From an uncultured Pelagibacteraceae bacterium (lineage in GTDB: Bacteria > Pseudomonadota > Alphaproteobacteria > Pelagibacterales > Pelagibacteraceae): a stretch of 64,000 nucleotides of DNA. A program made the position numbers and the translations under genes. Positions 57,754-64,000 of the stretch are shown one piece after another (the stretch's first letter is position 1; each line of letters opens with the position of its first letter). The notes under the pieces were generated by a model. That model worked only from the letters and a program-made list of their open reading frames with translations. It made no database searches and was not told the DNA's origin. The DNA lies in NCBI GenBank assembly GCA_902546145.1, contig CACCIT010000002.1, positions 1 through 64,000 on the forward strand. Reading direction: 5' to 3'.

Positions 57754-58698
57754 ATGTCTAAATTAAAAGGTTTATTATTAACTCAAGGTATGCATGGAAT
57801 GATTAGTCAAGTCGAGGGACTTGCAAAAGCGCTTGATATTGATTTTACACACCACAAGGTTGAACTAAAAAATATTTGGAAATTAGTTCCACCTAAATTT
57901 ACTCCAATTTCTCAAAACGTTTATAAAAAAGTTAATGATATAGATTTTGATATAATAATCTCATGTGGAAGAAAGAGCGTAATTCCATCTATTCACTTAA
58001 AAAGTATTTCTAAAAAAAAGGTTTTTAATATTCATATCCAAGATCCAAAAATAGACTTTAAATATTTTGATTTTGTTGTTGCACCTGAACATGATGGAAT
58101 AAATGGCGAAAATGTTATTAATACAAAAGGAGCAATTCATTATCTTTCAGAGAAAGAAATTGAAGAAAATAAAGATTATTTAAAGTCCCTTATCAAACAA
58201 GATGAAAGAAAAGTTTGGTGCTTAATTATGGGTGGGCCAACTAAATACTATGATTATTCAACTAAAAATATGAAACATATTTTCTCAATGTTTTATAAAT
58301 TAATGAAAAAACATGATTTTCAATTAGTAGTAATCCCATCAATGAGAACCCCAATAAATACAATTCATTATGCTAAAGAGTTTTTTGGAGAAAATCATAC
58401 AGTGATTATGAATGTAGATAAAAAGGCATATTTATCTGCATTAGCTTTATCTGAAAATATCATTGTTACATGTGACTCTAGCTCTATGATCTCAGAAGCT
58501 GCTTTGACAGGGAAACCAATTTATGTTGCTAATATTTTACCAAAAAAGAATGACAAAAGATTCCAAAGATTTAGAAATTTATTTAGAGAACTAAATATCA
58601 CTAGAAACTTAGGTGAAGAAATAGAAAATTGGAACTATGAAAAGCTAGATGAAACGAATAGAGTAGCAAAAATAATAAAAGAAAAAATTCAATCTTGA
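57754..58698 (+). CDS. ELM1/DUF1022 family protein
   Basis: LLLTQGMHGMISQVEGLAKAL, IISCGRKSVIPSIHLK, VTCDSSSMISEAALTGKPIYV. Confidence 0.88.
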   Translation: MSKLKGLLLTQGMHGMISQVEGLAKALDIDFTHHKVELKNIWKLVPPKFTPISQNVYKKVNDIDFDIIISCGRKSVIPSIHLKSISKKKVFNIHIQDPKIDFKYFDFVVAPEHDGINGENVINTKGAIHYLSEKEIEENKDYLKSLIKQDERKVWCLIMGGPTKYYDYSTKNMKHIFSMFYKLMKKHDFQLVVIPSMRTPINTIHYAKEFFGENHTVIMNVDKKAYLSALALSENIIVTCDSSSMISEAALTGKPIYVANILPKKNDKRFQRFRNLFRELNITRNLGEEIENWNYEKLDETNRVAKIIKEKIQS

Positions 58699-59363
58699 TG
58701 TCATTTTTAAATTCTATAAAAAATAATTCAAAAAAATATGAAACACCATTTGATCATTGGGAATATAGCAATGCTTTATCAGAAGCAGCAATTGAAGAGA
58801 TTGTTAAAGCAGATATTCCAGATTTAAGTCAGCATAATTTAAATTATGATGGAACTAGAGCAATAGATGGTGGTGCCGCTGAGTTTAGAGAAGGTATTTC
58901 GTCTGGTGGTAAAGCAATTAAATTTAGATGTTTTGTAACTAAAGAAAATAGTTCACAATTTCCAAGTCTTGTAAAATTTATTAATGAGCTACAATCAAAA
59001 GAAACACACGAAACAATATCTAAAATGATCAATAAGGATTTATCTAATTCATATGTTAGAGTTGAAGTAATTTGTGATAGGGAAGGATTTTGGCTCAAAC
59101 CGCACTGTGATATTAAAGAAAAATTAATGTCAGGATTGATTTTTGTTAATAAAACAAACGAGTCTGAGGATCTTGGTACAGATTTTTATAATGAAAAATT
59201 AGAGAAAATTAAAACACTGCCATACAGAAATAATTATGGATATCTTTTTACTAGTGGCCCAAACACCTGGCATGGAATGGAGAAAAAGAGCATTCTTAAA
59301 GAAAGACGGTGTTTACAAGTAAACTATGTGACTTTCGAAACTGATTGGAAAGTAAATAATTAA
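58695..59363 (+). CDS. 2OG-Fe(II) oxygenase
   Basis: HxD-type WLKPHCDIKEKLMSGLIFVNK and distal TWHGMEKKSILKERRCLQVNYV (H...R). Confidence 0.8.
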   Translation: MMSFLNSIKNNSKKYETPFDHWEYSNALSEAAIEEIVKADIPDLSQHNLNYDGTRAIDGGAAEFREGISSGGKAIKFRCFVTKENSSQFPSLVKFINELQSKETHETISKMINKDLSNSYVRVEVICDREGFWLKPHCDIKEKLMSGLIFVNKTNESEDLGTDFYNEKLEKIKTLPYRNNYGYLFTSGPNTWHGMEKKSILKERRCLQVNYVTFETDWKVNN

Positions 59364-60344: not shown

Positions 60345-60378
60345 GTTGATCAGGGTATAGTTTTTGACCCTGATCAAC
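60345..60378. terminator. Hairpin between convergent pilin and RsbW-like genes, candidate bidirectional terminator
   Basis: Perfect 12-bp stem GTTGATCAGGGT (60345-60356) / ACCCTGATCAAC (60367-60378), 10-nt loop. Confidence 0.75.
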
Positions 60379-60775
60379 TAACTTTCTTACTCATTGTTAG
60401 ATGATTTGTAAAACTTTTTGAGTTTTTGTTCCATTTTACACTATCCATAATTGTTTTGATGAAATAAGTACCAAGACCACCAGGTTTTATTGCTTTTAGA
60501 TTTCTAGGTTTAATATTATTTTTATTAACCTTAATGCCATTGTCATACAAGTGAATTAGAAATTTTTTATTTTTAAATTCTAATTTAATTTTGATGATGT
60601 TGTTTTTATTTTCTCCTTCATAAGCATGTTTAATTATATTGGTGACAGCTTCATCAACTGCAAGCTGGATATTTTTAATTATTTTTAAGTCTACTTCGTA
60701 AATTTTGAGAAAATCTTTGATTGTAGCCCTTATTTTTTTAAGATTGCTTAATGTTGCAGGGTAAGATTTTTTCAT
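60374..60775 (-). CDS. RsbW-like ATP-binding protein (anti-sigma factor/HATPase_c_2)
   Basis: N-box IQLAVDEAVTNIIKHAYEG, DNGIKV, GGLGTYFIKTIMDSV. Confidence 0.93.
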   Translation of the reverse strand: MKKSYPATLSNLKKIRATIKDFLKIYEVDLKIIKNIQLAVDEAVTNIIKHAYEGENKNNIIKIKLEFKNKKFLIHLYDNGIKVNKNNIKPRNLKAIKPGGLGTYFIKTIMDSVKWNKNSKSFTNHLTMSKKVS

Positions 60776-60893: not shown

Positions 60894-62201
60894 ATGAAAA
60901 AAGTTCCAAGAAACAACACTTACTTATTAATTTTAATTTTTTTCTTTAATGTAGTTAGTGCTAATTCACAAATTTCTTTTGAACAAATTTTAAAAAATCC
61001 AAACGATTTAAAATTAAATTTAAAATACGCAAAAGAACAGGAAGATTTAGGGAATTTTAAGTCTGTAATTTCAACACTTGAAAGATTAACAAGTTTATAT
61101 CCAGAAAATATTGATCTTAAAATGTATTACTTGTCCATTTCTTTGAGGATAGACTCTGTTGAGAGAACTATACAAATAATTGATGAAATAAAGAACAGTG
61201 AACAATTAACAGCAGAAATTAATGCTGAGATAGATATTATTTTACAAAATCTAAATAACACAGCTAATGCAAATGAAAATAAGTGGAATGGATATATTGA
61301 TATTTCTTTAAGTCATACTTATCACACCAATATCAATAATTTATCAGATTCAGGTACATTCTATGTAAGCGATTCTATTAGTAATTACGCAACTAATGAA
61401 ATTGAAAACGATACATTAGAAATACCAAGTATTAGAATTGGTGGTTTTAAAAAACTAAGTGATAATTCAAATATTAATCTTAATATTGGATTATCAGATA
61501 CAAATCAAAATAAAGACAAATCTGAAGAGAAAGATTTAAATTCAGTATTTTTAAATCATAATTATTTTAAAGATAAAAACTTATTAAGCACAACTTTTAG
61601 TTTTAATAAATCTAACTATAGAAACCAAGCAGATATCAATACTATCAATTTTGGATTACGAGATAAGTATTCAATAAATAAAAATCATTTTTTCATTGGT
61701 GGGATAAATTATACAAAAAATACTTATAATCAGAACAATACTTTTTCTACAACTAGAGAAAAAAATAATTATTTTGTGTCGGGTAACATTGGTTACGAAT
61801 TTATTTTCTCCAATAATAAATTTTTATTTGATTATAAAGATGGAGAATCTAAGGCAATCGCTGATCAATATGGATATAAACAGGAAAAATATTTAATTAG
61901 TTATTTCAGATACTTTGATTTTGGAACATTCAATTTTAGTAAATCTTTTACAGAAAATGAATATGAAATAGCTGATACATTTGTACTTTCAAGCACTGTA
62001 CGAGATGATGAATTAGATACGACCTCAATTAGTTTAAATGGAGAATTGGTTAATTTATACTTCTTAAACAAATTTAAATTTTTTGAAGATATTTATTATA
62101 ATCTTTCTTTTTCAAAAATTGATAGTACATCTAACATCTTAAATTATAATTATGAAAAAGAAATTCATAATATAGGTTTAACAAAAAGGATAAACTTTTG
62201 A
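60894..62201 (+). CDS. TPR plus outer-membrane beta-barrel protein (Slam/DUF560-like architecture)
   Basis: Signal peptide, N-terminal TPR-like helices (LKLNLKYAKEQEDLGNFKSVISTLERLTSLYPENIDLKMYYLSI), then repeated amphipathic strands to a C-terminal ...IGLTKRINF. Confidence 0.65.
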   Translation: MKKVPRNNTYLLILIFFFNVVSANSQISFEQILKNPNDLKLNLKYAKEQEDLGNFKSVISTLERLTSLYPENIDLKMYYLSISLRIDSVERTIQIIDEIKNSEQLTAEINAEIDIILQNLNNTANANENKWNGYIDISLSHTYHTNINNLSDSGTFYVSDSISNYATNEIENDTLEIPSIRIGGFKKLSDNSNINLNIGLSDTNQNKDKSEEKDLNSVFLNHNYFKDKNLLSTTFSFNKSNYRNQADINTINFGLRDKYSINKNHFFIGGINYTKNTYNQNNTFSTTREKNNYFVSGNIGYEFIFSNNKFLFDYKDGESKAIADQYGYKQEKYLISYFRYFDFGTFNFSKSFTENEYEIADTFVLSSTVRDDELDTTSISLNGELVNLYFLNKFKFFEDIYYNLSFSKIDSTSNILNYNYEKEIHNIGLTKRINF

Positions 62202-63694
62202 AAAAAATATTTTTAATAATTCTGATCTTACTTTTGCCTAGCAAGCTTTTTGCACAAAAACAGGTAATCGGTACAGTTACTTTAGCAATTGGTGAGGTTA
62301 AAACTAACGACAATAGAACCTTAAGTGCTGGGGATCCAATTTATTTTAACGATACTATTATTGCAGGGGATAATTCAAAATCTCAAATTATATTGTTAGA
62401 TGAAACTGTTATGATGATAGGAGCAGGAACTGAACTTATAATTGATGAATTTGTATTTAATCCCGGTGACTTTGAAGGCAAAATAACAACTACAATAAAG
62501 CAAGGTAGTATCAAAGTTTTATCAGGTAAAATTAGTGAAACTAACCCTGAAGACTTAGTAGTAAAAACACCTGCTGGAACTATTGGAACTAGAGGAACTG
62601 AATTTCAGGCTTTAGTAGATGAGGAGGATGGTGATAGCAAAATACTTCTAATCGGGCCTGGACCAAATAACACATTAGGTTTAAGACCAGGAGAAGTTGA
62701 GGTTTTTAACCAATTTGGCAGTGTTATTTTAGATCAACCTTTTTTATTTACGCAATTTAGTCAAGATCAAGCTCCTCAAGAACCTATTGTGATTTCAGAA
62801 CAAGATTTTAATGATTTTGTAAGAATACTTGAGGCTAGAAATGAGATTTCTGAAGATGAACAAATTCAAGAAGCTGTAAAAGAAGGACTGCTTATATCTG
62901 GAAAAGAAAGTGGAAGTGAATTAGTTGCTGAAGTAATTGATATCGTTTTAAAGAAGGAAGATGGTGGCGCAACTGCAGAAACCTTATCTGCAGCGTTAGG
63001 AGTAAGTGTTGAGGAATTATTTGGTGATGAATATAAAGAAGAATTCGAGAGCGAAAGTGAGGCAAATAAAGTTGTAATTGCAAACGGTGAATTCGGTGAT
63101 GCCGTTGCTATGATCACTAGATATGGAGGAACTGACCAGGGCAATTCAACTTATGCTGATCTTGCAGGCATAGCATCAGGAACTTACACCTATCAAGCAA
63201 CAGGTATTAATGGAGCAGCAGCTACAGGCTCAGGAAGTGGAACTATCGACTCAACTGTGGTGATTGACTTTGCTGCTAAAACAATCACACAAACAGTTTC
63301 TGGAACAGTTGCTTTAGGATCAGATTCAAGCAGAACTTTTTCAGATATTTCAAAAGAGCATAGTTATACAAGTTCATCATCAAATGTTGAAGCTGATCAA
63401 AATGTAATTATCGCAAGCAATGGAAATGCTTCTGCGGACAACACTAATTTTTCAGGAACTCCACAAGCAGCAGATTCTGATAATAAATCAGATTTTGTAG
63501 ACAGTGGTACTAATTCATATTTTTTAAATAACGAATTCACCTCAAGTAATATTAAACTTGGATCTGGAATAAATAATGATCCAATCGCATACGCTGGGCA
63601 CATGAATTTAGTAGTTGAAAATATAGACAATACAAATTCTATGGTTAATCAATTAAGTTTCTCAAGAACTGGAATAACACCTAAAAAAGATTAG
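62198..63694 (+). CDS. Secreted FecR-domain protein with beta-rich C-terminal region
   Basis: Signal peptide; VTLAIGEVKTNDNRTLSAGDPIYFNDTIIAGDNSKSQIILLDETVMMIGAGTELIIDEF and VKTPAGTIGTRGTEF are FecR-like; TTG start overlaps upstream TGA. Confidence 0.88.
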   Translation: MKKIFLIILILLLPSKLFAQKQVIGTVTLAIGEVKTNDNRTLSAGDPIYFNDTIIAGDNSKSQIILLDETVMMIGAGTELIIDEFVFNPGDFEGKITTTIKQGSIKVLSGKISETNPEDLVVKTPAGTIGTRGTEFQALVDEEDGDSKILLIGPGPNNTLGLRPGEVEVFNQFGSVILDQPFLFTQFSQDQAPQEPIVISEQDFNDFVRILEARNEISEDEQIQEAVKEGLLISGKESGSELVAEVIDIVLKKEDGGATAETLSAALGVSVEELFGDEYKEEFESESEANKVVIANGEFGDAVAMITRYGGTDQGNSTYADLAGIASGTYTYQATGINGAAATGSGSGTIDSTVVIDFAAKTITQTVSGTVALGSDSSRTFSDISKEHSYTSSSSNVEADQNVIIASNGNASADNTNFSGTPQAADSDNKSDFVDSGTNSYFLNNEFTSSNIKLGSGINNDPIAYAGHMNLVVENIDNTNSMVNQLSFSRTGITPKKD

Positions 63695-63697
63695 TTA

Positions 63698-63718
63698 GAC
63701 CCCCCATTTTAGGTAGTA
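63698..63718 (+). promoter_or_regulatory. GC-rich element, copy 3 (degenerate right half)
   Basis: GACCCCCCATTTTAGGTAGTA; matches copy 1 over GACCCCC...ATTTT. Confidence 0.4.
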
Positions 63719-63748
63719 CAATTAAAAACATCAAATATTTAAATAGTA

Positions 63749-64000
63749 ATGTTTGGAATGTTTAAAAATATTAGTAGAAGAGATTTTTGTAAGTGTTGTG
63801 GATCGATAGCACTATCAACTTTTTTCATTAATTTTGCAAAAGCAAATTCTGAAAAAAATCAATTAATTTATGGGAATATTATTATTAATGGTCAAAAAAT
63901 TGATAAAAATTCAGAAATCAATTTTGATAATTTAAGTGAATTAGAGACAAAAAGTGAATTAGCATTGGTACAAAATAATCAAAACGGTTTTTTAATTAGA
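63749..64000 (+). CDS. Tat-signal protein, FecR-like N-terminal part (truncated by window end)
   Basis: Manual translation MFGMFKNISRRDFCKCCGSIALSTFFINFAKANSEKNQLIYGNIIINGQKIDKNSEINFDNLSELETKSELALVQNNQNGFLIR...; SRRDF twin-arginine motif; start could be 63758. Confidence 0.6.
   Translation, partial: MFGMFKNISRRDFCKCCGSIALSTFFINFAKANSEKNQLIYGNIIINGQKIDKNSEINFDNLSELETKSELALVQNNQNGFLIR

Follow-up and report, generated by a model that had tools for sequence, protein, structure and literature searches.

The closest described export system is the type XI secretion system (T11SS), in which an outer-membrane protein (OMP) of the Slam type (SlipAM, DUF560), made of an N-terminal TPR region and a 14-strand barrel, handles cargo of the TbpB, NHBA or fHbp type. 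The NHBA/TbpB-like barrel is a known Slam cargo fold. Soluble T11SS cargo, e.g. haemophores, is also known, so a missing lipobox does not by itself exclude a protein as cargo. The available main text of two T11SS surveys (PMC12282271, PMC8406197) mentions neither FecR nor CHASE2, and a literature search, in which few subscription papers were covered, never returned DUF560 or "surface lipoprotein assembly modifier" together with FecR. FecR proteins have been placed beside CHASE2 transducers in two other settings. According to the accessible portions of the two reports, Campylobacterota carry clusters of CHASE2-cyclase, FecR and TPR genes (PMC9239204), and Burkholderia has an operon of a LysM-FecR protein and a CHASE2-histidine kinase, CHASE2 being a sensory domain with unknown input (PMC5192318). 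Those same portions draw no link between the TPR protein and SlipAM, or between the FecR protein and a TbpB-like cargo (PMC9239204, PMC5192318).

Here we describe a locus from a SAR11 bacterium that combines features of these systems. Like T11SS/Slam, it encodes an OMP with an N-terminal TPR region and a 14-strand barrel that has full-length profile homology to the family, and its neighbor gene encodes an exported protein whose counterparts in sister systems have NHBA/TbpB-like C-terminal barrels. Unlike T11SS/Slam, the OMP does not match PF04575, the partner has a FecR domain and no lipobox, and the operon includes a CHASE2 transducer. The FecR protein beside a CHASE2 transducer recalls the Campylobacterota and Burkholderia systems, as does the TPR protein of the Campylobacterota cluster, whereas the effector here is a PP2C phosphatase with STAS and HATPase partners. 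Pairing of a FecR-type periplasmic signalling domain with an outer-membrane protein is also found in FecA-FecR and PupB-PupR. In contrast to those systems, the operon has no TonB-dependent receptor or ECF sigma factor, its FecR protein has a signal peptide rather than a transmembrane anchor and cytoplasmic anti-sigma part, and the proposed receiver is a CHASE2-PP2C protein. Lastly, the PP2C, STAS (DSSG) and HATPase proteins retain their motifs, as in RsbU/SpoIIE partner switching; the difference is that here the phosphatase is joined to CHASE2 in one protein and tied to an outer-membrane module.

Results

Gene layout

The window is the whole stretch of DNA analyzed, bases 1-64000 of a contig of 86,175 bases from an assembly that is 62% complete. 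The closest locus belongs to a Pelagibacteraceae single-cell genome (94% identity in the OMP), in keeping with the preliminary description of the genome as SAR11-like. That description also placed three consecutive genes on the plus strand with a 4-nt overlap, TTGA, between the first two; the ORFs lie exactly at 60894-62201, 62198-63694 and 63749 onward, and gene 2 starts with TTG. Reading past 64000, gene 3 stops at 64435 and a CHASE2-PP2C gene starts at 64436, a gap of 0. The gene order on the plus strand is thus OMP, FecR, Tat-signal FecR and CHASE2-PP2C. Further upstream in the window, a plus-strand gene at 58695-59363 encodes a 222-aa protein with weak similarity to 2OG-Fe(II) oxygenases (E=0.014) and adjoins an ELM1-like gene at 57754-58698.

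The outer-membrane protein

Gene 1 (60894-62201, plus strand) encodes a 435-aa OMP with a signal peptide. Neither Pfam nor NCBIfam yielded a useful direct match for the window OMP, and the OMP alignment, run as a profile against the PDB, gave none. An AF2 model built from a 23-sequence alignment (mean pLDDT 85.6) places TPR-like periplasmic helices at residues 29-127 (60978-61274) ahead of a barrel of exactly 14 long strands at residues 132-434 (61287-62195), the TPR-then-barrel layout proposed earlier. The SAR11 homologues hit models for TPR and for generic barrels, with TPR_19 in 9 of 16 and TPR_14 in 7 of 16 (Pfam).

Foldseek listed the 14-strand porins OmpG and CymA among the top matches of the model. 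Because these matches are generic porins, they support a barrel and its strand number rather than Slam specifically. PelB and BcsC were also in the list. The PelB and BcsC matches are consistent with a different TPR-and-barrel protein, a polysaccharide exporter of the EpsL/PgaA/PelB/BcsC kind in an operon governing exopolysaccharide, as is a weak match of one OMP from another alphaproteobacterium (L165) to TIGR03016/EpsL at its C-terminus (32 bits, far under the cut-off). However, SlipAM at 52 bits fits that same OMP better, the barrel has 14 strands, and a non-systematic look at the loci examined recognized no polysaccharide gene set beside the module. We regard a polysaccharide exporter as very improbable.

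The preliminary description assigned the OMP to Slam/DUF560. The window OMP gave no match to SlipAM (PF04575) at E≤1, failing the curated cut-off, and is therefore not classed as T11SS; just 1 of 16 SAR11 homologues matches SlipAM (2.7e-4). Within a bridging clade of OMPs from other Alphaproteobacteria, SlipAM was found in 12 of 56 and TPR_Slam in 11 of 56 (E≤0.001), with a top SlipAM score of 52 bits against a 22-bit cut-off. In direct hhalign comparisons, where E-values are rough, one reversed control having reached 8.6e-5 (bridging clade against SlipAM; 0.02-0.1 for the SAR11 comparisons), the SAR11 OMP profile aligned with SlipAM over TPR and barrel (98.5%, 1.8e-15; reversed control 0.1) and over the barrel alone (97.9%, 5.2e-13; reversed control 0.22), with the bridging clade over its full length (100%, 3.5e-40), and the bridging clade in turn with classical SlipAM (100%, 4.4e-43). 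Since these E-values are single-template and outer-membrane barrels resemble each other, we take the homology as superfamily-level. The family assignment thus stood as profile homology and strand number, and did not extend to a PF04575 match. In a midpoint-rooted tree with long branches, the FecR-associated clade, including SAR11, separates from classical SlipAM with support of 100/99. Judged from sequence comparison, gene 1 very probably encodes a Slam relative at the superfamily level.

The FecR-domain proteins

Gene 2 (62198-63694, plus strand) encodes a 498-aa protein with a Sec signal peptide and, by hydropathy, no clear transmembrane anchor besides it. The FecR region claimed for this protein is borne out by PF04773 (E=3.4e-9, 37.5 bits, cut-off 24). 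The domain itself (62351-62644) has the PupR cell-surface-signalling fold, with Foldseek matches to PupR (4.3e-6) and to 5ix9 (1.1e-3) and a profile match to 5ix9 (1.1e-6). The 5ix9 match connects the domain with the LapA-type retention module (NF033682; PDB 5ix9), which the N-terminal domain of sister FecR proteins also resembles (1.4e-6), although these scores lie below the curated cut-off and, unlike in a LapA-type system, no type I secretion was seen. The protein contains no cysteine and hence no lipobox.

At the C-terminus of the window protein is a beta-rich domain with the motif IDFAAKTI (63182-63691), which we call type B. AF2 resolved four antiparallel strands in it at pLDDT of about 55 and left the rest without a fold. 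Foldseek also listed fHbp entries for the model (E 0.14-1.3, probability about 0.05), which we discounted given its unresolved C-terminus. FecR proteins of other Alphaproteobacteria have two main kinds of C-terminus, type A and type B. Type A matches NHBA (1.8e-8), TbpB (2.2e-4) and fHbp (2.6e-3) in the PDB, and a few of its members match TbpB_B_D or FHBP_C. The type B domain of the window protein is shared (95%, 3.4e-8) with short FecR partners in other Alphaproteobacteria, gave only chance nanobody matches when its profile was compared with the PDB, and reached at most 5% probability against type A. The TbpB-like C-terminus suggested for the window protein therefore holds for sister FecR partners, with NHBA at 1.8e-8, and in the window protein is not supported by these comparisons. 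The OMP tree divides exactly along the A and B types (99/95), which is the pattern expected of pairwise-inherited genes and no proof of transport.

Among SAR11 FecR proteins the C-terminus varies, being a beta domain, a lysine-rich tail or apparently a separate downstream gene; some of the proteins are about 190 aa long, the remainder perhaps forming a gene of its own. In seven loci (L044, L045, L046, L049, L051, L052 and L054) very long lysine-rich tails (KKKAKKKRKKK) replace the beta domain. The lysine-tailed or short FecR proteins of many SAR11 relatives argue against barrel export as a general role, and export of the FecR C-terminus in the window strain is somewhat doubtful.

This variation bears on a relay without export, in which the OMP would serve as an anchor or receptor and its TPR helices would bind a soluble periplasmic FecR protein that informs CHASE2 of the condition of the outer membrane, nothing being displayed at the surface. 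The FecR domain is invariant while C-termini range from a beta domain to a lysine-rich tail or none, its fold is that of cell-surface-signalling domains, and the window C-terminus has no relation to TbpB in profile comparison; all three fit a relay. On the other hand, the relatives of the OMP include an export family, the cargo fold of that family is carried by the FecR partners of the sister clade, and the OMP tree follows the FecR C-terminal type. We consider a relay of this kind a close though rather doubtful rival.

Gene 3 encodes a Tat-signal FecR-like protein of 228 aa on the plus strand (63749-64000, open at the window end and running to contig position 64435). Its Tat signal, reported previously, was confirmed by the motif SRRDFCK, and TatC is encoded in the same genome. 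Its FecR likeness is partial, since PF04773 matches with E=2.3e-4 at 22 bits, slightly below the cut-off. A Tat-FecR gene occurs in 3 of 80 SAR11 OMP loci, so we dropped this protein as a core part, and the Tat-exported partner proposed for the module is instead a rare extra.

Signalling genes around the module

The CHASE2-SpoIIE/PP2C protein (contig 64436-66415, plus strand, 659 aa; PF05226 2.7e-50, PF07228 7.7e-32) has one N-terminal transmembrane segment, a periplasmic CHASE2 domain, a transmembrane bundle starting at residue 336 and, in the cytoplasm, the phosphatase. Divergent from the OMP gene, at 60374-60775 on the minus strand, lies a gene for a 133-aa RsbW/SpoIIAB-like HATPase (PF13581 5.9e-23) with an N box and G boxes, which on these sequence features is the probable partner-switch kinase. 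The gene for a DSSG-bearing STAS protein (contig 83623-83955; STAS 3.9e-16) lies about 17 kb from the module, outside the operon, and adjoins genes reading as type IV pilus assembly genes. The PP2C metal motifs, the STAS DSSG and the HATPase N box are all intact within one genome.

Additional genes were seen in these regions. A PilW-like minor pilin of 611 aa (L003:10224-12059, minus strand; contig 70223-72058) has a C-type-lectin-like C-terminal half (Lectin_C E=0.064) and no PDB match, and is a possible pilus-tip adhesin. An ammonium transporter-SpoIIE/PP2C fusion (L046:12993-15146, minus strand; PF00909 5.3e-114, PF07228 3.7e-37, Pfam on L046) has similar ORFs of 705-720 aa beside the OMP in L085, L087, L097 and L102; in SAR11 relatives the fusion gene directly precedes the OMP-FecR-CHASE2 genes, and it is perhaps a second PP2C input, perhaps for ammonium, to the same switch. 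A GAF-domain PP2C phosphatase near the module (L043:3872-5161, plus strand, with comparable ORFs of 426-433 aa at many SAR11 loci) is a possible third input.

Co-conservation of the genes

Among 80 SAR11 loci, which were chosen by the OMP and some of which are cut by contig ends, a FecR gene directly follows the OMP homologue in 79, a pairing beyond chance; within 6 kb of the OMP we found CHASE2-PP2C in 52, HATPase in 41, STAS in 40 and pilin genes in 45. In 297 genomes of the family, the OMP occurs in 38 and a full-length CHASE2-PP2C in 38, with both in 34 (Fisher 9e-36, uncorrected for relatedness); either is present in 42 genomes, and 4 and 4 have one alone. Outside SAR11 the clade is represented by 59 OMP loci: a FecR gene adjoins the OMP in 38 and CHASE2 is encoded in 28, while 17 of the 59 show no FecR gene within the sequence examined, some of these lying near contig ends. 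CHASE2 genes outside SAR11 mostly carry a cyclase domain (3/3 loci tested by Pfam). Of ten weak OMP matches, the eight classical SlipAM loci had neither an adjacent FecR gene nor CHASE2; the two borderline cases with FecR are L256 and L257. The genes almost certainly form a unit.

In two cyclase-type operons of other Alphaproteobacteria, a GAF-domain gene lies just upstream of the SlipAM-like OMP (L165:6491-7102, PF01590 3.6e-9; L166:9016-9789).

The preliminary description read these genes as a surface-display system. Plain T11SS-type display, with the CHASE2-PP2C neighbor controlling expression rather than reading FecR, agrees with the SlipAM homology and 14 strands, with the cargo-like C-termini of sister systems, and with the OMP-FecR pairs without CHASE2 at some SAR11 loci. 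Set against this, CHASE2 accompanies the OMP in 34 of the 42 genomes and at nearly half of the loci outside SAR11, the FecR domain is kept throughout, and the cargo has no lipobox. Moreover, at L048 (12479-16018, plus strand) CHASE2-PP2C is paired with a 1179-aa FecR-domain protein and no OMP homologue lies nearby. We regard plain display as quite improbable. The idea of a secretion system only was dropped after CHASE2-PP2C was found past the window edge; what stands is a Slam-related barrel paired with FecR, in a unit better read as an operon for signalling, with CHASE2-PP2C, HATPase and STAS, than as display alone.

Discussion

We favor, with slightly less than even confidence, an envelope signalling operon in which the Slam-related OMP acts at the outer membrane by holding or exporting the FecR protein. 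The observed basis is gene order, domains, homologies, co-conservation and catalytic motifs. From it we infer the physical contacts and the direction of signalling, as well as export of the C-terminus and pilus output. The OMP, a T11SS/Slam-related TPR and 14-strand barrel protein, would bind the FecR protein in the outer membrane, and the C-terminal beta domain of its partner would probably pass through the barrel or onto it. Remaining periplasmic, the FecR domain would report the state of the OMP or cargo (ligand bound, exported, blocked) to CHASE2 in the inner-membrane protein, whose gene is the second after gene 2; that FecR signals to CHASE2 is likely. The cytoplasmic SpoIIE-type PP2C of the CHASE2 protein would then dephosphorylate the STAS protein and flip the STAS/HATPase partner switch, an action that we consider reasonably probable. 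SAR11 may have linked this switch to type IV pilus genes, although the pilus as output is doubtful. Elsewhere in the Alphaproteobacteria, this front end would drive a CHASE2-adenylate cyclase.

A bolder form of this envelope-signalling model is that an alphaproteobacterial clade of T11SS-related OMPs turned into a trans-envelope receptor, with FecR cargo held half out and its beta domain outside. The FecR domain would act inside as a retention or sensing plug, and CHASE2 would read the export or ligand state and pass it to PP2C switches or cAMP. We consider this form unlikely.

The genes look more like a means of informing the cell interior of an event at the outer membrane or the surface than like plain export, and the link between T11SS/Slam barrels and FecR-CHASE2 signalling looks new. 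Should CHASE2 prove to sense a FecR protein that a Slam-type barrel handles, the signal of CHASE2 would become testable. Additionally, the T11SS superfamily would gain a signalling branch with new cargo, and the streamlined SAR11 cell would retain a signalling line from the outer membrane to the cytoplasm beside its type IV pilus genes.
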